In this document: positions 1 through 52,247 of the stretch, one piece after another
How positions within the stretch are numbered: the stretch's first letter is position 1
How the letters are laid out: the number at the start of each line of letters is the position of its first letter
Source of the DNA: Oceanimonas smirnovii ATCC BAA-899
GTDB taxonomy: Bacteria > Pseudomonadota > Gammaproteobacteria > Enterobacterales > Aeromonadaceae
Direction: 5' to 3'
DNA length: 64,000 nt
Assembly (NCBI RefSeq): GCF_000381965.1
Contig: NZ_KB908454.1
Coordinates: 286,324 to 350,323, forward strand
The notes under the pieces: generated by a model
Told to the model about the DNA's origin: nothing
The model's input: only the letters and a program-made list of their open reading frames with translations
Databases searched by the model: none
Position numbers and translations under genes: made by a program

Positions 1-180
1 TCGGACGATGACAAGTCAGATGGCGTTAAGTCGGATGATGACAAGTCGGACGGCGGTAAATCAGACGATGACAAATCGGACGGCGGTAAGTCGGATGATG
101 ACAAGTCGGACGGCGGTAAATCGGATCATGACAAGTCGGACGGTGGTAAATCGGACGATGACAAGTCAGACGGTGATAAG
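1..180 (+). repeat. six tandem 30-bp coding repeats (SDDDKSDGGK units)
   Basis: Units start at 1, 31, 61, 91, 121 and 151. They keep the ten-residue pattern with small changes (V for G in unit 1, H for D in unit 5, D for G in unit 6). The array is cut by the window edge, so its true copy number is unknown. Such near-identical units can expand and contract by slippage or recombination. Confidence 0.9.
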
Positions 181-699
181 TCGGACAGTCACTCTGATCA
201 TTCCGATGGCGAACCGGACCATGAGTCAGGCAGTGAGGCTGGTGAAGACGATGCTGATAATGGCAAAGGGCCTCAGGGCAACAATGGCCATGGTAATGGT
301 GACCAGGATGCCCCCGGTAATTCCGGTGGTAACAACAACGCTGAAAACAGCAGTAATTCAGGCAAAGGGAACAGCGGTAACGGTGCCGGCAAGGCTAAGG
401 CACTGAGTCTTTTCTCCGATGGTGAAGATGAACTTGTACCAATGCCGGCTGCAGATGACACTAAACAACCGGTTTCCGGACAAGCCGAAGAGCAGAAAGG
501 TCAAGCGCTGGATATAGACAGTGTGCTTTCTGTAGAGAAAGATGAGATTGATCTGGGAGAGAGTGATGATAACAACAGCTCAGCATCCTGGTCCGGCAGT
601 GGCAGTTCACCGCAAGGGGATGCAGGAGGTGATGCCTTTGGGGGGCAGCAAGAAGATCCCTTTGATCTTGCCAATAAACCAGGAGGGCTTGATCACTAA
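1..699 (+). CDS. acidic Ser/Asp/Gly repeat protein, C-terminal part (5' end outside window)
   Basis: Frame 1 is open from the first base to the TAA at 697-699, giving 232 residues. It starts with six ten-residue units of the type SDDDKSDGGK, continues in an acidic Ser/Asp/His/Gly/Asn-rich stretch with no predicted fold, and ends in a tail rich in Asp, Glu, Ser and Gly (last residues PFDLANKPGGLDH). No catalytic domain or membrane segment is visible. Many serines have an acid at +3 (SDDD, SDGD, SDGE, SGSE), which is the casein kinase 2 target pattern, and a CK2-like kinase is encoded at 3969-4973. I infer that it may be that kinase's phospho-acceptor. I do not recognise the family; the missing N-terminus could hold a signal peptide or structured domain. 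The openness of the frame is certain, the function is not. Confidence 0.75.
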   Translation, partial: SDDDKSDGVKSDDDKSDGGKSDDDKSDGGKSDDDKSDGGKSDHDKSDGGKSDDDKSDGDKSDSHSDHSDGEPDHESGSEAGEDDADNGKGPQGNNGHGNGDQDAPGNSGGNNNAENSSNSGKGNSGNGAGKAKALSLFSDGEDELVPMPAADDTKQPVSGQAEEQKGQALDIDSVLSVEKDEIDLGESDDNNSSASWSGSGSSPQGDAGGDAFGGQQEDPFDLANKPGGLDH

Positions 700-737
700 C
701 ATGCCTTTGCGCTGTGGTAGCATTTAAAGCCTTAACC

Positions 738-770
738 AAAGCCCTCTTTACATAGGGGGCTTTGTGTTTT
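738..770 (+). terminator. likely Rho-independent terminator after the repeat protein
   Basis: AAAGCCCTC pairs with GGGGGCTTT (one G-T wobble) around an 8-nt loop and is followed by GTGTTTT. It lies between the repeat-protein stop and the next start, so the two genes are probably partly separate in transcription. Confidence 0.6.
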
Positions 771-792
771 GTATGGTATTGGAGATAAACAC

Positions 793-3700
793 ATGCTGGA
801 TGTGTTACTTAAAAAAGCTTATCAGGAGCTTGTTCATCTTTTAAGTGATGAGCATGTATTAGCTCAAGAAGGTAATATTAAAAAAAATGAACTGCCTGGT
901 TTTATCCTGTACTTGTCTTTAAGTAATGCCAGGGAGAAAGCTAAAGTTGTTACAGTTTCAGGTAACGATTTTCAGAGTGCCTGGAGTAAAGCGGTTGGTG
1001 AATGTATCAGCATAACACCTGATAATACACATTCCGTTAAATGGCTTAGGGTTGACTGGGCCACTAAAGTTCAGGCTATAAGCTTTAAAAAATTTAATGA
1101 CCTGCTGAGCAGAACAAAGCGTAATTATTTCAGGTATGGTATTTCATTCTCTAACAATTTTGAATGCTCCTTGCTCGAGCAAGAGCTGAATGCCAATGCT
1201 ATTCTATACTCTGGCAGCCACATTCCACATGCCAGCCTTAATATTAAAAATCTTAATGCATACTTTAAAAAGCGCTTTGACCAGCCGTTTACACTAGATA
1301 TTAAAGAGAATGATTTAATATATGTGCTCTCTACGGCAGGACGCTTTTACTCAATGGACGAGAGCATTAATGATCTTCCAGGTAGCAGTGATAAAGGTAT
1401 CCCTTTAGCTGGCCCTGGTCGTAATGGTGGCCGGCGTCAGCCCGGGCCGCTGAATGCTGCTCAGGTCTTTAGCCTGGTGGATTATGGTGCTGCTTTTTTG
1501 TCTCGTCAGGTGATGCCAGATGGAAAATTTATATATGGTTACTTTCCCTGTTTTGGCCGAAAAATTGCCAATTACAATGCGCTGCGCCATGCCAGTACTA
1601 CCTATGCCATGCTTGAAGCCTGGGAGCTGACCCAGAGTGCTGAACTGAAAAACGCCATTGATCGAGCCCTTGCATACCTTGTCAATGAACTGATCCATAC
1701 TTACTCGCTGAATAGTGAACAGCAAGTAGCTTATCTGGTAGACACCGGAAACGAAATTAAGCTTGGTGGTAATGCCGTCTGCTTGTTGGCGATGGTGAAA
1801 TATACCGAGTTGACCAATGATGAACGTTATCTGTCACTAATGGAATCATTGGCGGCGGGTATTGAATTGATGCAACAGCCTGACACAGGTCAGTTTGCGC
1901 ATGTATTAAACTCAGATGATCTCTCCATTAAGGAGCAATTTCGAATCATTTATTATGATGGTGAAGCAGCATTTGGTTTAATGAGATTGTATGGGTTAAC
2001 AAAAAATGAGCGTTGGCTTAAGCTTGTTGAGCGTGCTTTTGACTATTTTATAGATAATGGTCATTGGCAAGCCCATGATCACTGGCTTTCCTACTGTGTG
2101 AATGAACTGACTCGTTACCGGCCTGAAGAGAAATACTTTCGCTTTGCTGTTAACAATATTGCCGGTTATCTCGACTTTATAAAAAACCGAAGAACCACTT
2201 ACCCAACACTACTTGAACTCAGTATGGCTTTTCATCATACGCTGGGGCGCATCAAGCAGCTGCCTGAAATGCAGCACCTTCTTCAAGACTTTGATGAAAA
2301 CGAGTTTTATACGGCCTTGCATGCCCGGGCAAACTATCTGATGAACGGTTTTTTCTGGCCTGAGTTCGCGATGTATTTTGCCGAACCTCAGACTATATTG
2401 GGTAGTTTTTTTATACGCCACCATTCCTTTCGGGTAAGAATTGACGATGTTGAGCATTACCTTTCAGGTTACGTTGCCTATCATAATTTTTTAAAAAAGA
2501 GCTATGATTTTATTTTAAAAGATATAGGTTCTGAGGGTGGTGATATATATTGGACAAAAGATCATCTGAGGAAGGCAACCAATGGACGTTGGTTACGTGA
2601 ACCATCTTCAGATAACTGGCGTGCAACTGGGTTATGCATTACTGAGAATACTATGAGGCCAGGATGTATAGCTGCAGTAAAAGGAGTGAACGATAAAACA
2701 TTTATTAAAGCAGAGAGAATTGAGTATCTCCCGTTTTTACCTCAGGCTCTACTGGTTTCTGATGAAAGTGTAGTTGATAAAAGTGATATCCCTACTATTC
2801 TGGTTAATAATGTAAGGAAAGCGATTATTGATGCAGGAAAGTACGCTCGCTTAAAGACAAAGGCAAAAGTTATCGGAGTCACTGGTAGCGCAGGGAAGAC
2901 CACCATGGTTGCTATGCTTCAACATATATTGAAGCCATGGGGTAAAGTAAATAAAACAGAGCATAATGCAAATCTTCCCGTCGGTATAGCATGGAACTTA
3001 GCATCTATGTCTTGGGACTCTGACTACATAGTAGTAGAAATGGCAATTGGACAAATGCAGACTAATGCAAGTTTGGCTCTTCCCCAAGTTGCCGTTTTAA
3101 CTAATATTCATCCTGCTCACCTTGAATATCACAAATCAACTGAAGATATAGCAAGAAAAAAATCCTTAATTTTTTCTAAAATGGCTCCTGGTGGAGTTGC
3201 TGTAATTAACCGGGACTTGCTAGAGTGGGAATTGGTTTCTTCGATTGCGCTTCATTATGGGGCTAAAATAATTAGTTTTGGAACTCATGTTGATAGTGAT
3301 ATAAGACTTGTTGACTTTAATGCTGAAAGCAAAGAGGTTATTGTTAGTTGTCGTAATAGAGAGCATTTTAGGTTTGCTATGGGTTATCCTGGTGAACATA
3401 TGGTAATGAATGCTCTTGCATGTTTTTCTGTGGTTGAGAGTTTAGGGCTTGATGTTACAGTTGCTGCAGCAATGATGCCATTATTTAGTGCAGTCAAAGG
3501 TAGGGGGGAGGTGCTATGCTGTAAGTTAAGAAATACCATATTCTATCTGATTGATGATGCCTATAATGCGAACCCTGCTTCAATGAAAGCAGCTATTAAT
3601 ATGTGTGGGTTAAGTAGCTTTTCTTTTAAACCTGTAAGAAATTTGTTTTTGTTGGGAGATATGCTCGAATTAGGTGGGCATGCTCTTGATTATCATATGG

Positions 3701-3960
3701 GTTTAGTGCCGGAAATAGTAAAAAGCTCACCTGATAAGGTATACCTTGTTGGTGAATACATGAAAGAACTTGTACCTGTTCTATTAGATAGAGATATACC
3801 TTGTGTCTGGTTTGAAAACGTTGATGTTGTAATAAATTCTCTTGAAAAAGACTTGCAAGATGGAGATCTGCTTTTGATTAAGTCATCCAATGGTACTGGT
3901 CTGCATAAAGTGGTAGATTCACTTAAACGTTTGTCATTAAGTTACTCATCAATAAAGTAA
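793..3960 (+). CDS. large fusion protein: alpha-toroid-like region plus C-terminal MurF-type Mur ligase
   Basis: 1055 residues from the ATG at 793, chosen over the in-frame ATG at 769 because GGAG lies 8 nt upstream. Residues about 1-220 match nothing I know. Residues about 220-580 are helical, with repeated aromatic and Gly motifs typical of alpha/alpha-toroid glycosidase- or LanC-like folds (weak call). Residues about 690-1050 form an ATP-dependent Mur ligase: P-loop GVTGSAGKTT at 695-704, a TNIHPAHLE motif, the MurF signatures DDAYNANP at 921-928 and GDMLELG at 955-961, and a SNGTGLH end motif. MurF enzymes join amino acids through an acyl phosphate; housekeeping MurF is about 450 residues, so this is not the cell-wall enzyme. 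It sits 8 bp before the kinase gene, so the two are probably co-transcribed. Substrate unknown. Confidence 0.8.
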   Translation: MLDVLLKKAYQELVHLLSDEHVLAQEGNIKKNELPGFILYLSLSNAREKAKVVTVSGNDFQSAWSKAVGECISITPDNTHSVKWLRVDWATKVQAISFKKFNDLLSRTKRNYFRYGISFSNNFECSLLEQELNANAILYSGSHIPHASLNIKNLNAYFKKRFDQPFTLDIKENDLIYVLSTAGRFYSMDESINDLPGSSDKGIPLAGPGRNGGRRQPGPLNAAQVFSLVDYGAAFLSRQVMPDGKFIYGYFPCFGRKIANYNALRHASTTYAMLEAWELTQSAELKNAIDRALAYLVNELIHTYSLNSEQQVAYLVDTGNEIKLGGNAVCLLAMVKYTELTNDERYLSLMESLAAGIELMQQPDTGQFAHVLNSDDLSIKEQFRIIYYDGEAAFGLMRLYGLTKNERWLKLVERAFDYFIDNGHWQAHDHWLSYCVNELTRYRPEEKYFRFAVNNIAGYLDFIKNRRTTYPTLLELSMAFHHTLGRIKQLPEMQHLLQDFDENEFYTALHARANYLMNGFFWPEFAMYFAEPQTILGSFFIRHHSFRVRIDDVEHYLSGYVAYHNFLKKSYDFILKDIGSEGGDIYWTKDHLRKATNGRWLREPSSDNWRATGLCITENTMRPGCIAAVKGVNDKTFIKAERIEYLPFLPQALLVSDESVVDKSDIPTILVNNVRKAIIDAGKYARLKTKAKVIGVTGSAGKTTMVAMLQHILKPWGKVNKTEHNANLPVGIAWNLASMSWDSDYIVVEMAIGQMQTNASLALPQVAVLTNIHPAHLEYHKSTEDIARKKSLIFSKMAPGGVAVINRDLLEWELVSSIALHYGAKIISFGTHVDSDIRLVDFNAESKEVIVSCRNREHFRFAMGYPGEHMVMNALACFSVVESLGLDVTVAAAMMPLFSAVKGRGEVLCCKLRNTIFYLIDDAYNANPASMKAAINMCGLSSFSFKPVRNLFLLGDMLELGGHALDYHMGLVPEIVKSSPDKVYLVGEYMKELVPVLLDRDIPCVWFENVDVVINSLEKDLQDGDLLLIKSSNGTGLHKVVDSLKRLSLSYSSIK

Positions 3961-3968
3961 TTTTCATT

Positions 3969-4973
3969 ATGTATAAAAAAGGTTCGGGTAAAAAGTCAAT
4001 ATCCAGAAACTACCAAAACATTAACTGTGAAAGTAATAATAGTGAATGGGACTATAAACATAAAGAAATAAAATGGGGCTCTATTGAAGATTACGTTATT
4101 GGTAAGAAGCTGGGAGAAGGAACCTTTTCTCAGGCCTATAAAGGAACTTGTAAAAAGACAGGCATTAATGTAACCATAAGAAAGTTAATAAAAGACAGGT
4201 CTGAAAAGATAAAAAGAGAGATCTCTGTGCTCAGGCGCATTAAAGGTAGTGTGAATAATGCTCATATCTTTGATGCAGTTAAGGAAGATGATGATCAAAA
4301 ATATATCATTATGCATTACTATATTAACGATGGTGTAATTAAAAAGGATACACCTCTTTCTGAAGTGGAGCTTAAAGTTTATATGCTTCAGTTGCTTAAT
4401 GGTCTGGATGAGGCTCACAGCAGGGGAGTAATGCACAGAGATATTAAACCTTCTAATATTGTTGTTAACAGGAAAAGAGAGCGACTTAAGATTATAGATT
4501 GGGGTATGGCTGACTTTTATCACCCTTATAAGGAATATCACCTTCGTGTAGGTTCTTATTATTACAAGGCTCCTGAGCTGTTGTTGGGTATGAAACAGTA
4601 TGACTACTCTCTTGATATGTGGTCGTTTGCCTGTTTATTTGCTGGCTTTGTTTTTGGTGATTTTCCTTTTGTTAAAGGCAAAGATAAATCTGAAGTGCAG
4701 TTAATTAGAAGTATTTCAGGGTTGTTTGGAGAGGGAGAACTGTGGGATTATATTGAAAAGTATAATCTGAACGGTATTTCTGAAGAAAAGCTGAAGGCCA
4801 TTGTAACCCCCAGCAACAAGAGTAACAGGATCATGAGCAAGGCAGAAACGCCTTTTAAAACGGCACTGGCGCTCGATTTGTTGCAAAAAACACTCAAAGT
4901 AGACCATCAGGAAAGGCTGACAGCCAAAGAGGCGATGGAACATCCTTACTTTGATGAGGTACGCAAAGCCTAA
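3969..4973 (+). CDS. CK2-alpha-like eukaryotic-type protein kinase
   Basis: 334 residues, 8 bp downstream of the Mur-ligase fusion. Kinase motifs: glycine loop GEGTFS at 49-54, KIKREI at 80-85, HRDIKPSN at 156-163 (catalytic D158), DWG at 177-179, APE at 201-203, and a C-terminal DHQERLTAKEAMEHPYF at 312-328. DWG in place of DFG, the FYHP segment after it, YDYSLDMWS at 211-219 and the last motif are nearly the text of eukaryotic CK2 alpha. CK2 phosphorylates Ser/Thr with an acid at +3. Two of the three basic residues that CK2 uses at its substrate pocket are kept (R193, K200); the third is Y197. The usual VAIK lysine aligns with R71, with K72 next to it, so activity needs testing. No membrane segment or sensor domain. 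I know of no standard bacterial family with this CK2 signature; transfer from a eukaryote is my inference. Confidence 0.9.
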   Translation: MYKKGSGKKSISRNYQNINCESNNSEWDYKHKEIKWGSIEDYVIGKKLGEGTFSQAYKGTCKKTGINVTIRKLIKDRSEKIKREISVLRRIKGSVNNAHIFDAVKEDDDQKYIIMHYYINDGVIKKDTPLSEVELKVYMLQLLNGLDEAHSRGVMHRDIKPSNIVVNRKRERLKIIDWGMADFYHPYKEYHLRVGSYYYKAPELLLGMKQYDYSLDMWSFACLFAGFVFGDFPFVKGKDKSEVQLIRSISGLFGEGELWDYIEKYNLNGISEEKLKAIVTPSNKSNRIMSKAETPFKTALALDLLQKTLKVDHQERLTAKEAMEHPYFDEVRKA

Positions 4974-5004
4974 TTAACGCAACGTGCTGTTACCGGAGTC
5001 TGTT

Positions 5005-6117
5005 ATGACTATTTTATCCCCTTATGCTGCCTGGCTTGCTGCGCTGGAGTCCGGCTTTGTTGACGATGCGGCTCAGCGTTATGCAGTGGAGTGGCTTGAA
5101 AGTTGTTATCGCGGCGTTTTGGCTGAGCAGCCGGCCACGCCCGGAGTGTACCTCTGGGGGCCGGTGGGCCGGGGTAAAACTTGGCTGATGGACCGTTTTT
5201 TCTCTAGTCTGCAGAGCGCTGATGTGCCTGCCAGGCGATTGCATTTTCATCATTTTATGCAGCAGCTGCACAGGCGGTTGTTTCAGCTGACCGGTATTGA
5301 AGAGCCGTTACAGGTGCTGGCTCAGGAATTGAGCGCAGAGGTGCAGGTATTATGCCTGGATGAGTTGTTTGTCAGTGATATTGGTGATGCCATGCTGCTG
5401 GGGCGGCTGCTGCGCCATTTGTTTGAACAGGGCCTGGTGCTGGTCACTACCTCCAACCAGCCGCCGGAAGGTCTGTATGAAGACGGCTTTAATCGGGAGC
5501 AGTTTTTGCCGGCGGTGGCAGCCATGACTGAATGTATGCAGGTAGTAGCGGTGCATGGTGAGCAGGATCATCGCCTGCATCCGGGGCGGCAACAGCAGCG
5601 TTACTGGGTGAACGAGCCTGCTGCTCTTGCCGCCGTGTTTGAACAACTGGCCGGCACGAAGAAGAATACTGAGCCTTTAATGTTGGGTAATCGTTCCATT
5701 CCTGTGCTGGGATGCAGCAAGGGGATGCTCTGGTGTCGTTATGCTGACTTGTGCGAGCAACCGCTGGCGGCCCAGGATTTTATCGCCCTGTGCGATCAGT
5801 TTGAGCAAATACTGCTGAGCGAGGTGCCTCGACTCAGTTGCAACAGCCGGCAAAATCCCATTGCCCGGGGGACGGAAGACGGCACCGCACAAGTAGCTGC
5901 TGGCGATCGCGTGTTGCCGGCGCTGTCTCGCCAGGACGACGGCGTGCGCCGTTTTATTGCGCTGGTGGATGAATGCTATGACCGCGGTATTCCGGTTTAT
6001 ATCAATGCCGCCGTGGCCATGGATGCGCTCTATACCGATGGTGCGCTGGCGTTTCCGTTTCGCCGCACCCTGAGCCGGCTGAAGGAAATGCAATTGGCAC
6101 GGTTTGGAGAAAAATAA
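5005..6117 (+). CDS. ZapE/AFG1-family P-loop ATPase
   Basis: 370 residues from the ATG at 5005 (GGAG 6 nt upstream; an earlier in-frame start at 4984 has no ribosome site). Walker A GPVGRGKT lies near residues 45-52 and Walker B LCLDELFVSDIGDA near 114-127, followed by TTSNQPPEGLY, as in COG1485 cell-division ATPases (bacterial ZapE, mitochondrial AFG1). The C-terminal part ends RRTLSRLKEMQ as in the family. An extra segment of roughly 30 residues rich in Gly, Arg and Gln (near residues 280-310) interrupts the usual junction before DDGVRRFIALVDE. The gene may be a paralogue of the housekeeping ZapE. It is GC-richer than the kinase cassette before it. Confidence 0.88.
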   Translation: MTILSPYAAWLAALESGFVDDAAQRYAVEWLESCYRGVLAEQPATPGVYLWGPVGRGKTWLMDRFFSSLQSADVPARRLHFHHFMQQLHRRLFQLTGIEEPLQVLAQELSAEVQVLCLDELFVSDIGDAMLLGRLLRHLFEQGLVLVTTSNQPPEGLYEDGFNREQFLPAVAAMTECMQVVAVHGEQDHRLHPGRQQQRYWVNEPAALAAVFEQLAGTKKNTEPLMLGNRSIPVLGCSKGMLWCRYADLCEQPLAAQDFIALCDQFEQILLSEVPRLSCNSRQNPIARGTEDGTAQVAAGDRVLPALSRQDDGVRRFIALVDECYDRGIPVYINAAVAMDALYTDGALAFPFRRTLSRLKEMQLARFGEK

Positions 6118-6126
6118 CGAGCATTT

Positions 6127-6564
6127 TCAGTCTTTATAATGTTTTCGCATTTCTGCCATATAGCGCAGGCTGGCTTCCGTTGCCGGTGCCAGCGCGCTGG
6201 TGGCTTGTGGCGTTACCAGCAGGTTGCCACTGGCTTCACGGGTCACAAAGCCCATACTTTCCAGCTTGTTCACTTTTCTGCGTACTGTTTCCCGGGCAAT
6301 GCCGCTGCATGCTGCTACTGACTGAATATTAATGGGTCTGCCAGCAGGCGTGGGTTTGTTTATTGCCATAAACTCACTGTAGGTCATGGCTTTGGCATGG
6401 CGCGCCGGCTGTGCCCGGGTGCCAAGAATTGCCAGCACCAGCATCAGGTCGAGATCGCCGTCAAATTGCTGCCGTAACTGAATTAATAACTCGGTCAGTG
6501 CCTCTACATGGGCCGGCCAGATGCGCCCGAAATGGGTGGTAAGGTGATCGTCTTCTATTGCCAT
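6127..6564 (-). CDS. winged-helix (MarR-like) transcriptional regulator
   Basis: 145 residues reading from the ATG at 6562-6564. The reading frame runs further upstream, but that part only mirrors the efflux gene on the other strand. The segment SVAACSGIARETVRRKVNKLESMGFV is a helix-turn-helix followed by a wing, as in regulators that choose targets by a single recognition helix. It is divergent from the RND efflux pair at 6697-10832, so it is likely its local regulator (inference from position). The ribosome site is weak, so the start is uncertain. Confidence 0.65.
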   Translation of the reverse strand: MAIEDDHLTTHFGRIWPAHVEALTELLIQLRQQFDGDLDLMLVLAILGTRAQPARHAKAMTYSEFMAINKPTPAGRPINIQSVAACSGIARETVRRKVNKLESMGFVTREASGNLLVTPQATSALAPATEASLRYMAEMRKHYKD

Positions 6565-6627
6565 GGTTTTTATATCTTTATGAAAAAGAAGAAAAAAGTA
6601 ATAACCCATTTTGGGCGACACCAGTGT

Positions 6628-49697: not shown

Positions 49698-50330
49698 TTA
49701 ATTTGCAGAGTGACCAATGTTTCTGTAGTCATCAGAAGGTTTCCCTTTGGCCTTGCACATGTAACTGGTGCGGTATATCAGCGCATCATACATTTGCTGA
49801 AAGTTCTCGTTGTTTTTGTTTAGGGGGTAGAATGGGTTTTGAGGGATGTAAACCAAACTTTCAAAAGTATCTTGCATGATGCCAAGAGCGCTACACCAAG
49901 CCTCTCTTATCATTCTGACGAGTCTATTTTGATTGATGGCGTTATGTCCAAACGTGTAAGTGTCGTTGTTGATTAAAAGCAAGGTGTGATAGTGGTGTTT
50001 ATTTCCTTCCCCATGCTCCCGCACCCAAACATATCTCACACTTGATGGATGAACTCTATATCCTGTTTTTCCTCTGCTTTTAATGTCATGTCTTATCTTT
50101 GCTTTTAACGACTCTATAAATCGGGTGATTGCTCTGTGATCATTGTTGATGAAGTAGGTGGGTGCATCTTCAGCAATGTAATCGCTAGTGTGTGAACCAG
50201 GAAAACGCAAATCAAACCTGATAGCCAGTGTTCTGGGGTGTTGAGCTAATGACTGGTAGATGCACCTTTCGATTATATTTAGATAGCCAGGGATTAGTGG
50301 GCCATGGTTGTAGTTGTATCTGTTGTTCAT
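49698..50330 (-). CDS. inovirus Gp2-like (YagK/YfjJ) replication-type protein
   Basis: 210 residues from ATG 50328-50330 (AAGGAG 7 nt upstream). The text VWVREHGEGNKHHYHTLLLIN and an N-terminal RFDLRFP motif are those of the YagK/YfjJ C-terminal domain, common in phage satellites and inovirus-like elements as rolling-circle-like initiators. It lies 40 bp upstream of alpA. Visibly AT-richer than the adjacent YqaJ/DUF932 genes, so possibly from a different element. Confidence 0.75.
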   Translation of the reverse strand: MNNRYNYNHGPLIPGYLNIIERCIYQSLAQHPRTLAIRFDLRFPGSHTSDYIAEDAPTYFINNDHRAITRFIESLKAKIRHDIKSRGKTGYRVHPSSVRYVWVREHGEGNKHHYHTLLLINNDTYTFGHNAINQNRLVRMIREAWCSALGIMQDTFESLVYIPQNPFYPLNKNNENFQQMYDALIYRTSYMCKAKGKPSDDYRNIGHSAN

Positions 50331-50803
50331 GAATGTACTCCTTGTTGATTCCATAGGAGTAGGTGCTCATGTAAAAAATATATATCTGATTGTTTGTTGG
50401 TTGCACCTAGAGTGCATGGAACTTTTATATATTAATCAATCAGACAGGGTTTTATCGTGCCGGTATGGTTTAAGCGCCTGTGTATAGTGCTTTAGCTAAG
50501 AGAGAGGGCGGTTATTTGCTCTGATGTTAGAGAGTTGGTCTCATACTTGGGTTTTATCTTTATTGGCATTGTTGACTGTACCTCTAGAAAGCCAGTAAGA
50601 AAGGTGGTGGGGCATGTATGTAAAGTGTGCATGAGAACAACTAGTACCAAGCAAGAGGAGAAGTTTTAGACCCCCTAGATATGAAGAAAATCAATGTAAA
50701 ATGTCTTTGTTGGCTTCACGGAGCGTATGATGACAAGGTTTTACCTTGTTTCTTTTATCCAAAAGTAACGTGCAAATCACGTTGTAAAGATTGACTAACT
50801 ATT
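50331..50803. other. AT-rich divergent control region
   Basis: No gene. It separates the minus-strand Gp2-like gene from the plus-strand orphan gene. Three short inverted repeats could be operators: TGCAC-CTAGA-GTGCA (50402-50416), ACAAGG-TTTTA-CCTTGT (50734-50750) and AACGTG-CAAAT-CACGTT (50767-50783). Confidence 0.4.
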
Positions 50804-51778
50804 TTGAAATGGTACTGTCAAACTATTGAAGTATCACTAAAGGATATCGCTGTGGCTAGAGTAGTTAGAAACGTTCCTTTTTATAACCTCCTTGATCTAA
50901 ACTTAGACGTTTTGAGGTTTATATACTTGAGTTTTAAGTTGGAAAGTGATGAGGATTTCGAAACGCTTCCTTTCTTAATTGATCCAGCAGAGCTTAAAGA
51001 AAAGATATGTGGGAGCATTGAAAAAGCTTTTGGTTTGGAATTGCCTATGAATGATCTAGGTAGAGGTGAGGTGGTTCGCGATTATATGGTGGAAAAGTCG
51101 AGAGACTTCAGTTATAGGTTTTCTCAAAGTTTGAAACTATTAGAAGATACTTGCAAGGATGTTCATGTATGTTTCTTTTTTTGGTATAGGATAAGGTGTG
51201 AAATTGAAGGGTTTAATGGTTATTCTTCTTTTTCTTTAGGGGGAGTTTTTAGTCATAAAGAAAGGGTTGAGCAGTTAAAGTATATTTTTGTTTATCTCAG
51301 TTGTCTTAGGTTGAGTGGAAAGTTTGAGGTAAATGACTTTTTTGAAATGGCTCGTTGTGATTGGCTTAATAGTAGAAGGGAGAGTGTATCTATTGGTTTC
51401 TTAAACGACGAGGATGATGAACAATGTAATTGGGTGTGGGAGTATATTTCAGCTGCAATAAATGCTGAGTCTGTTCTCGGAGGTTTTTTTTCACCCAATC
51501 CTAGTAATGGTAAAGAAGCGTACATTTTTTCGGTAGGAATATTGGATTCAATAACACCTAAATTGCATGTTGATACTAAGAGAAAGATTATAGCTAAGTG
51601 CGGAAAGGCTTGGGCTCAAAAGAAGTATAGAGATGGAAAGAAAAAAAAGAATAAAGTTCCTATAAATATTTATGTTAGTGAGGAGGCAAAGCAGATTTTA
51701 GATGAAATGGCCAGATCAAGATCTGTATCAAAAGAAGTGGTAGTTGAGATGCTGATTATGAACGCTAGGGAAAATTGA
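50804..51778 (+). CDS. AT-rich orphan protein with ribbon-helix-helix-like C-terminus
   Basis: 324 residues; not recognised. The first 260 residues are helical and acidic/aromatic without clear motifs. Residues about 285-320 read KVPINIYVSEEAKQILDEMA followed by a second helix, the beta-strand plus two-helix pattern of ribbon-helix-helix DNA-binding proteins, after a Lys run (DGKKKKNK). A DNA-binding regulator or partitioning factor is possible. The base composition is far lower in GC than the rest of the island. The start may lie further upstream. Confidence 0.65.
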   Translation: MKWYCQTIEVSLKDIAVARVVRNVPFYNLLDLNLDVLRFIYLSFKLESDEDFETLPFLIDPAELKEKICGSIEKAFGLELPMNDLGRGEVVRDYMVEKSRDFSYRFSQSLKLLEDTCKDVHVCFFFWYRIRCEIEGFNGYSSFSLGGVFSHKERVEQLKYIFVYLSCLRLSGKFEVNDFFEMARCDWLNSRRESVSIGFLNDEDDEQCNWVWEYISAAINAESVLGGFFSPNPSNGKEAYIFSVGILDSITPKLHVDTKRKIIAKCGKAWAQKKYRDGKKKKNKVPINIYVSEEAKQILDEMARSRSVSKEVVVEMLIMNAREN

Positions 51779-52247
51779 TTTTTTTTCTTCTTGTGCTTTG
51801 TGAAGTGTATCGCTTTCTTGGTGTGCTAATCTAAGAAAAAAGAGATTGCACTAATGATTTTTGATAAGTATGCGCTATTGGGGGGCTAAGTTCATGGCTT
51901 TCATGAATGGATAGGAGGTGAATGGCAAGAACTATAATTTACATTGGGTACTCCGCTTCTATATTTGTATTTTTTATTTGCATTGCGGGTGATGGAGTGA
52001 GTTGCCCTTAAAAAATATAATGTTGAAATTGGTTTTTTGGTTGCTTTGTCAATATTATCCACATTAAAAAGCTGAATATTTTTGGTATGTCATTAACATT
52101 TCTTAAGGAGCAAATATCTTTTCCTAACGATGCTATGTTGGCCAGATTCGTATTGAGTTGCACTGGCAATGTTTTGCTTGATGCTAAGTCAGCCTTCATC
52201 TTTCGTTGTGTTACTGAACCACCAGCCCAGGCAGAAGGTCACTGAGG
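51779..52247. other. AT-rich right end of the island
   Basis: Apart from the small reading frame at 51922-52011 there is no convincing gene. A 63-codon minus-strand frame at 52008-52199 lacks a good ribosome site and family match. Confidence 0.4.
51922..52011 (+). CDS. 29-residue hydrophobic peptide with strong ribosome site
   Basis: ATG at 51922 follows an ideal AGGAGGTGA. The product MARTIIYIGYSASIFVF then FICIAGDGVSCP is one membrane helix and ends with a Cys-Pro. Short hydrophobic peptides of this kind include toxins, but no antitoxin RNA was identified. Seen only as an open frame. Confidence 0.4.
   Translation: MARTIIYIGYSASIFVFFICIAGDGVSCP

Follow-up and report, generated by a model that had tools for sequence, protein, structure and literature searches.

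A CK2-related kinase gene adjoining those for an acidic LapA-type adhesin and a GtfC-like/MurF-like fusion enzyme in Oceanimonas

We analysed a window of 64,000 nt from Oceanimonas smirnovii ATCC BAA-899 (assembly GCF_000381965.1, contig NZ_KB908454.1, positions 286,324–350,323 of the forward strand; window position 1 is L005:14325). At its start, four genes follow one another on one strand, separated by gaps of 69, 8 and 10 bases: the 3' end of an adhesin gene, a gene for a two-part fusion enzyme, a gene for a protein kinase related to eukaryotic casein kinase 2 (CK2) alpha, and a gene for an AFG1-like ATPase. A preliminary description, made from the letters of this DNA, had paired the kinase with an acidic repeat protein full of CK2 target sites. 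The features are as follows.

1–699, plus strand: 3' end of the gene for a type I-secreted adhesin of LapA type; frame 1 has no stop between base 1 and the one ending at 699.
1–222, plus strand: Ser-Asp/Lys (SD/Lys) repeat block of SDDDKSDGGK units, proposed as kinase target from serine-context statistics.
737–764, plus strand: hairpin with a T-rich tail between the adhesin and fusion genes, a possible partial terminator by consensus match only.
769–3960, plus strand: fusion enzyme of 1063 aa, a GtfC-like helical domain plus a MurF-like ligase.
769–2505, plus strand: GtfC-like domain (fusion residues 1–579), 37% identical to a Staphylococcus haemolyticus protein whose gene adjoins pls.
2878–3888, plus strand: Mur ligase middle and C-terminal domains (fusion residues 704–1040), TIGR01143 at 265.8 bits against a cut-off of 288.6.
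3969–4973, plus strand: CK2-clade protein kinase of 334 aa, with Arg71 at the catalytic-lysine position, HRD at 156–158 and DWG at 177–179.
4984–6117, plus strand: AFG1-like ATPase, beginning 10 bases 3' of the kinase gene.

Among 23 genomes of the genus, the kinase was present in four (that of the window, G000; G006; G008, O. baumannii; and G010, Oceanimonas sp. CHS3-5) and the fusion enzyme in five (the same four and G018, which has adhesin and fusion genes without a kinase). The co-occurrence that the preliminary description had proposed to look for was found in four species: the order adhesin, fusion, kinase and the orientation were identical in all four kinase-bearing genomes, and the full-length kinases were 63–73% identical between species. 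In G010 the kinase is broken by a frame change.

The open reading frame (ORF) starting at 3969 does contain the text that had been likened to CK2 alpha, namely DWG (as IIDWG), FYHP and DHQERLTAKEAMEHPYF, and it matched Pkinase (PF00069) at 179.6 bits. Its best phmmer match in the PDB was CK2 alpha (6ise_B, 264 bits, E 1.5e-77, residues 6–334), the best 60 of 2271 distinct sequences matched were all CK2 alpha, and the matches include the CK2-type N-terminal segment, while YDYSLDMWS is a further motif common to both proteins. Over 321–325 columns, the three full-length Oceanimonas kinases showed 37–41% identity to the CK2 alpha rows 9hk5 and 4anm, which we take to be the human and maize proteins. 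In a 15-row tree (the three Oceanimonas kinases, four CK2s, CDK2, ERK2 and six bacterial kinases), the Oceanimonas kinases were sister to the four eukaryotic CK2s (support 93/95), lying outside the four-CK2 clade (95/97) on a long stem, and the CMGC rows (CDK2, ERK2, CK2 and the Oceanimonas kinases) were separate from the six bacterial kinases (97/100). The tree thus placed the kinase next to CK2, as anticipated, with few rows, long branches and thin sampling; one included row, bact_L003, is unusual in its letter composition and sits at the end of a very long branch, and 6 of the 12 bacterial loci tried were lost through mismatch to the HRD motif used. The best 60 PDB matches, all CK2 alpha, and the tree together rule out an ordinary Hanks-type kinase, and conservation in G006 and G008 rules out a spurious ORF. 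Predicted structures of the GtfC-like domain and the kinase were both set aside because of their mean pLDDT values (54 and 37, respectively).

The catalytic residues of protein kinases are the VAIK lysine, the HRD aspartate and the DWG aspartate. The window kinase has intact HRD and DWG motifs, and a lysine directly follows its Arg71; the G008 and G010 kinases retain the catalytic lysine. By eye, the kinase has no obvious signal peptide. According to PMC9014129, the basic residues of the CK2 alpha P+1 loop are Arg191, Arg195 and Lys198. Equivalents of Arg191 and Lys198, two of the three, are retained in the Oceanimonas kinases (G010 is unreadable there), and the Arg195 equivalent is Tyr in the window kinase and His in G006 and G008. 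Compared with eukaryotic CK2 alpha, the Oceanimonas kinase has APE for GPE and lacks the KKKK stretch. The CK2 beta profile (PF01214) was matched in 0/23 genus genomes but also in 0/14 control genomes, and so without a positive control.

The kinase gene has a G+C content of 37%, versus 56–60% in the adjoining AFG1 gene. Its pN/pS was 0.22–0.28, with synonymous sites near saturation (0.17–0.20 for AFG1 and 0.29 for the fusion gene), and it is therefore under purifying selection. At E 1e-20 the kinase had no match in 368 other gammaproteobacterial genomes sampled or in 397 other Pseudomonadota genomes sampled (the two samples overlap), and none at 1e-15 in plasmids; a search of viral contigs with two peptide patterns found no relatives. 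A scan of genome contigs with two peptides returned two Oceanimonas loci and two distant kinases (28% identity), which leaves room for other bacterial CK2s because both peptides are genus-typical. From sequence comparison, the natural reading is that the kinase was gained by transfer from a eukaryote.

The complete adhesin ORF (L005:10866–15023) starts upstream of the window and is interrupted by exactly 600 consecutive N, the last of them just before window position 1. It opens with a retention module of the LapA kind (NF033682 at 116.7 bits against a cut-off of 50), continues through ~690 residues of alternating Asp-Ala, (Asp-Ala)n, into SDDDKSDGGK-type repeats, and closes with a tail rich in Gly, Asn and Asp. 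The six ten-residue repeats reported at the window start are there, although SDDDK is found in five of them and SDHDK in the fifth; the reported SDGE, SDGD and SGSE steps are all present in the adhesin 3' end. TolC, ABC and HlyD type I secretion genes, all over their cut-offs (TIGR03375, TIGR01843 and TIGR01844), and by eye a LuxR-type regulator, are divergent from the adhesin gene. Farther away lie LapG-like (218.1 bits, equivalog cut-off 320) and LapD-like (419.7 bits, cut-off 1020) genes, both below their cut-offs. The retention module and secretion genes thus narrow the earlier suggestion of a surface product to a type I-secreted adhesin class, and by analogy with LapA its product may be under c-di-GMP control.

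We examined 29 retention-module ORFs of the genus, 5 beside the fusion gene and 24 others, 9 of which run off a contig (a match below cut-off, G008:C6, was omitted). (Asp-Ala)n runs were found in 5/5 of the former and 0/24 of the latter. The adhesin tails differ between genomes: lysine-containing repeats of SDDDKSDGGK in G000, of SDDESDKSDAGKPGDESDQ in G006 and of SDGESDKG in G008, versus SDSD steps within Asp-Ala only in G010 and nearly pure Asp-Ala in G018. An SD/Lys block is therefore found in 3/3 genomes with an intact kinase frame and in 0/2 fusion-bearing genomes without one (G010, G018). Counts of S[DE]x[DE] were 16, 47, 55 and 37 in the kinase-adjoining adhesins of the four genomes, and 0 in the G018 fusion-adjoining adhesin (both pieces). 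In the 24 other retention ORFs they were 0–9, among these 2, 3, 4 and 9 for a further such adhesin in each of the four kinase-bearing genomes. In G018 the (Asp-Ala)n frame is broken inside the repeat in the assembly (L049:9996–11931). A second adhesin with a retention module, free of Asp-Ala runs, is encoded in each of the four genomes with the kinase and in G018 (L107, L108, L109, L117, L119).

The middle gene had been described as a MurF-like amino-acid ligase. Mur domains are indeed present, with the ATP-binding loop VTGSAGKTT, but the larger GtfC-like half had been missed, and TIGR01143 stays under the curated murF cut-off, also in the G018 fusion (284.4 bits). The GtfC-like domain gave weak, below-cut-off matches to GH88, GH127 and GH76, and its profile found one PDB match at E 0.02, which is not convincing. 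The fusions of G008, G010 and G018 carry a CapA-like domain in addition (PF09587 was scored for G018 only, at 204.9 bits). It is absent from the fusions of G000 and G006, the two genomes whose kinases have Arg at the catalytic-lysine position.

Fusion residues 1–579 matched 54 of 72,556 plasmid records at 32–51% identity. In S. haemolyticus the matching gene, coding for 538 aa, lies between pls, which it follows directly, and a Mur-like gene, and the alignment of its product with the GtfC-like domain spans 549 columns. PMC5230774 describes the S. aureus COL gene directly after pls as encoding GtfC, of 538 residues, states that GtfC and GtfD together give fully glycosylated Pls, and notes that CAZy did not predict GtfC as a glycosyltransferase. 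From size and place, the S. haemolyticus protein would belong to the GtfC family. Fifteen of the 54 plasmid loci, picked for diversity, were fetched and read in six frames; 13 had an Asp-Ala or Asp-Ser repeat ORF (46 to >1800 alternating residues) within ~6 kb, and the A. baumannii and Variovorax loci had no dipeptide-repeat ORF near the gene. The repeat ORFs include Pls, an S. simulans SdrD-like protein and a Listeria AD-repeat LPXTG protein among Gram-positive bacteria, and elsewhere BapA-like proteins of Agrobacterium and Sulfitobacter and a Klebsiella region annotated 'clumping factor'. Those of Agrobacterium, Sulfitobacter and Listeria consist almost wholly of (Asp-Ala)n and contain very little Ser, and therefore the family may act on Asp or an Asp-attached group, which would leave Ser for the kinase. 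The Mur-like half is optional, since none is listed beside the Listeria and E. gilvus copies, and the S. haemolyticus Mur-like protein (L158:7579–9309) may not be a ligase, because it matches Mur_ligase_M only from position 100 and so misses about the first 100 middle-domain positions with the ATP-binding loop.

In a second gammaproteobacterial family, fusion relatives were present in 13 of 151 genomes (14 copies). All six close copies lie near a retention-type (Asp-Ala)n ORF with SDAD steps, several of these ORFs being cut by the fetched stretch, and no SD/Lys block was detected in them by motif count. The eight more distant copies had no Asp-Ala or Asp-Ser repeat ORF in the fetched stretches, that of G554 ending at a contig edge beside the gene. 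In these 13 genomes and G018, no CK2-like kinase was found (best match 48 bits). The GtfC-like domain matched eight genomes of the class, its own included; of the two neighbourhoods inspected, G423 and G194, the latter had no (Asp-Ala)n ORF within 20 kb. In G423 (L067:6588–7661, 4795–6591), and also at L139–L143, the fusion gene is followed by a gene for a ~350-aa HELFH protein (metallopeptidase-like by eye), and a ~600-aa membrane/ABC-like protein (also by eye) is encoded between it and the (Asp-Ala)n adhesin; in G423 this pair had no Pfam match at 0.01. In G469 (L150:8903–15014), a second, distant fusion copy is convergent to a gene for an 841-aa Ser/Thr kinase with TPR repeats, and this Hanks-type neighbour may reflect chance or a parallel case.

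CK2 classically prefers Ser/Thr with an acid at +3, and it was sites of this kind that the preliminary description had seen in the repeats. When acid frequencies around block serines were compared with those in shuffled blocks, the constant feature was instead an acid at +1 (0.85–1.00 vs 0.38–0.45 shuffled, p<0.0005, in the G000, G006 and G008 blocks; 94–100% vs 39–45% in this genome's blocks). For the block at 1–222, with 16 serines, the values were 0.94 vs 0.39 at +1 (p<0.0005), 0.56 vs 0.38 at +3 (p 0.088) and 0.50 vs 0.15 at both positions (p<0.0005); the other G000 values were 0.50 vs 0.44 at +3 (p 0.44) and 0.50 vs 0.20 at both (p 0.014). At +3, G006 was depleted (0.25 vs 0.43; both positions 0.25 vs 0.18, p 0.08) and G008 enriched (0.62 vs 0.38; both 0.58 vs 0.14; each p<0.0005). 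The SDSD part of G010 had acid at both positions in 0.97 vs 0.25. Sites acid at both positions are enriched through +1. The claim of +3 sites is thus not supported for G000 and G006, and the common factor is a +1 acid, which would fit a kinase with its P+1 contacts kept and its +3 contacts partly lost.

Taken together, we consider it about an even call that these genes form a cassette devoted to a highly acidic, LapA-like biofilm adhesin, whose repeats are modified by the fusion enzyme and the CK2-derived kinase before export. Of this, the sequences themselves show that the kinase is kin to CK2, that four species share the row of genes, to which class the adhesin belongs, and that the fusion family is associated with proteins carrying Asp-Ala/Asp-Ser repeats. 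The adhesin would be made in the cytosol, with its repeats unfolded. There the kinase, derived from CK2 alpha, would probably phosphorylate serines directly followed by Asp, with SDGESDKGSDGE and SDDDKSDGGK as candidate substrate peptides, and the fusion enzyme (GtfC-like, optionally CapA-like, and MurF-like parts) would probably modify the Asp-rich repeats. Export would probably follow by way of the type I system whose genes lie upstream, and the retention module would hold the chain until LapG cuts, with the nearby LapD/LapG pair probably in control. Charged and in part phosphorylated, the stalk would be able to bind surfaces and divalent metal; a phosphoserine/aspartate polymer would suit Ca2+-bridged adhesion, a role that we infer, as we do phosphorylation itself. 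A wider version of this proposal is more tentative: that a captured eukaryotic CK2 alpha serves as a dedicated Ser-Asp repeat kinase, that the GtfC-CapA-MurF fusion modifies the Asp of (Asp-Ala)n, and that the wider family is a general, unrecognised modifier of Asp-dipeptide repeats in Pseudomonadota and Bacillota.

Several observations weigh against phosphorylation of the repeats. In the kinases of the window and of G006, arginine stands in for the catalytic lysine. The CK2 Lys74–77 stretch and His160 are presumably determinants for an acid at +3, and positions 74–76 read RSE in G000, RAE in G006, RAD in G008 and NPG in G010; position 160 is Ser or Ala in the Oceanimonas kinases, while Lys77 and Arg80 are retained. 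With Arg195, Lys74–76 and His160 replaced, and Arg for the catalytic lysine in two of the four copies, the Oceanimonas kinase is not an ordinary CK2. At +3, the G000 blocks show no significant excess of acid, and G006 shows a deficit. Kinase-free relatives carry Ser-Asp steps inside (Asp-Ala)n, a Klebsiella plasmid record without a kinase listed nearby has >900 such steps in one open frame, and G010 has them despite its frame-broken kinase. SDxD steps alone therefore neither imply nor need a kinase, and SDxD counts were rejected as proof of targeting, both for the SDAD steps of kinase-free relatives and because the +3 acid of G000 largely follows from composition. The 3/3 vs 0/2 pattern of the SD/Lys block is suggestive, with weak statistics because the five Oceanimonas loci share ancestry. 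A further point on this side is that the Ser-Asp repeat serines of Pls carry sugar, an alternative fate (PMC5230774 and PMC7029136).

This last point leads to a different account, in which the repeats receive sugar and not phosphate: the GtfC-like domain, homologous to a protein at the place of GtfC after pls, would bring about repeat glycosylation as in Pls, where GtfC with GtfD gives full glycosylation (PMC5230774), and the kinase, whose gene ends 10 bases before AFG1, would regulate something else, such as c-di-GMP signalling, secretion or the AFG1 ATPase. We regard this as unlikely, given that the family lies near almost Ser-free (Asp-Ala)n in Agrobacterium, Sulfitobacter and Listeria, so that Ser is not its general target, that no further glycosyltransferase was found among the neighbours scanned in Pfam, and that the SD/Lys block tracks the kinase and not the fusion. 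Less probable again is a pseudokinase or weakly active enzyme, a CK2-derived scaffold that, perhaps in the role of a chaperone for export, binds the acidic repeats without phosphorylating them. Such a protein would be in keeping with the arginine that G000 and G006 have in place of the catalytic lysine and with the replacement of several substrate-binding basic residues, under purifying selection nonetheless. On the other side, the aspartates of HRD and DWG remain, the catalytic lysine is present in G008, and in the window kinase Lys follows the Arg. Activity of the window kinase, with its Arg for Lys, is the weakest point of the phosphorylation proposal. The idea that a horizontally acquired gene merely settled in an adhesin operon, its target unrelated, would account for the low G+C of the kinase gene relative to AFG1 and for the absence of 1e-20 matches from the gammaproteobacterial and Pseudomonadota genomes sampled; we judge it quite improbable, since order and orientation are kept between species whose full-length kinases are 63–73% identical, and the repeat block tracks the kinase.

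As for the flanking DNA, the AFG1-like ATPase gene probably shares a transcript with the kinase gene and probably lies outside the adhesin-modification system. Hairpin-type consensus sites like that at 737–764 number 12 in 7 kb, versus a mean of 6.9 in shuffles. Elsewhere in the window, whose overall G+C is 55%, a stretch of 37% G+C at 50001–52000 is associated with a replication-protein-like ORF (by eye; 49698–50354, minus strand) and an unknown 324-aa ORF (50804–51778); it may be an integrated element of small size.

Adhesins of the LapA type have been described before, and so have enzymes that serve dipeptide-repeat adhesins specifically. With LapA/BapA-type adhesins the Oceanimonas protein shares the retention module, the type I ABC/HlyD/TolC genes and the LapG- and LapD-like neighbours; it differs in a body made mostly of (Asp-Ala)n and Ser-Asp/Lys repeats and in having modifying enzymes in the gene row. 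Phosphoserine-Asp/Ca2+ biominerals and adhesives are known from dentin phosphophoryn and caddisfly silk, eukaryotic products of the secretory pathway; by analogy, the Oceanimonas adhesin would be a Ser/Asp-rich protein phosphorylated by an acid-directed kinase, its phosphorylation being putative. The staphylococcal loci resemble this one in that an Asp-Ala/Asp-Ser repeat surface protein (Pls) is followed by a homologue of the fusion N-terminal domain, and in their dedicated repeat-modifying enzymes, GtfC/GtfD for Pls and SdgA/SdgB for SdrC/D/E and ClfA (PMC5230774 and PMC7029136), whereas these surface proteins are Gram-positive, wall-anchored and carry sugar on Ser. No kinase is listed beside the fetched S. 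haemolyticus, S. aureus, S. epidermidis and S. simulans genes. Among the matches listed in the open literature, none described a CK2-derived kinase in a LapA-type adhesin locus or linked a Mur ligase to dipeptide-repeat surface proteins, and no paper there on Oceanimonas and casein kinase was found.

If the proposal is correct, bacteria would have put a eukaryotic signalling kinase to new use in the maturation of a secreted adhesive. Enzyme and substrate would vary in step: Ser/Lys repeats occur where the kinase does and are missing where it is not. Phosphoserine/aspartate adhesives and mineral-binding proteins would then have a bacterial model in this locus. In two phyla, poorly understood genes annotated 'Mur ligase' and 'poly(glycerol-phosphate) glucosyltransferase' are tied to surface proteins with Asp-Ala/Asp-Ser repeats, a link that makes the chemistry of Asp-dipeptide repeats testable.

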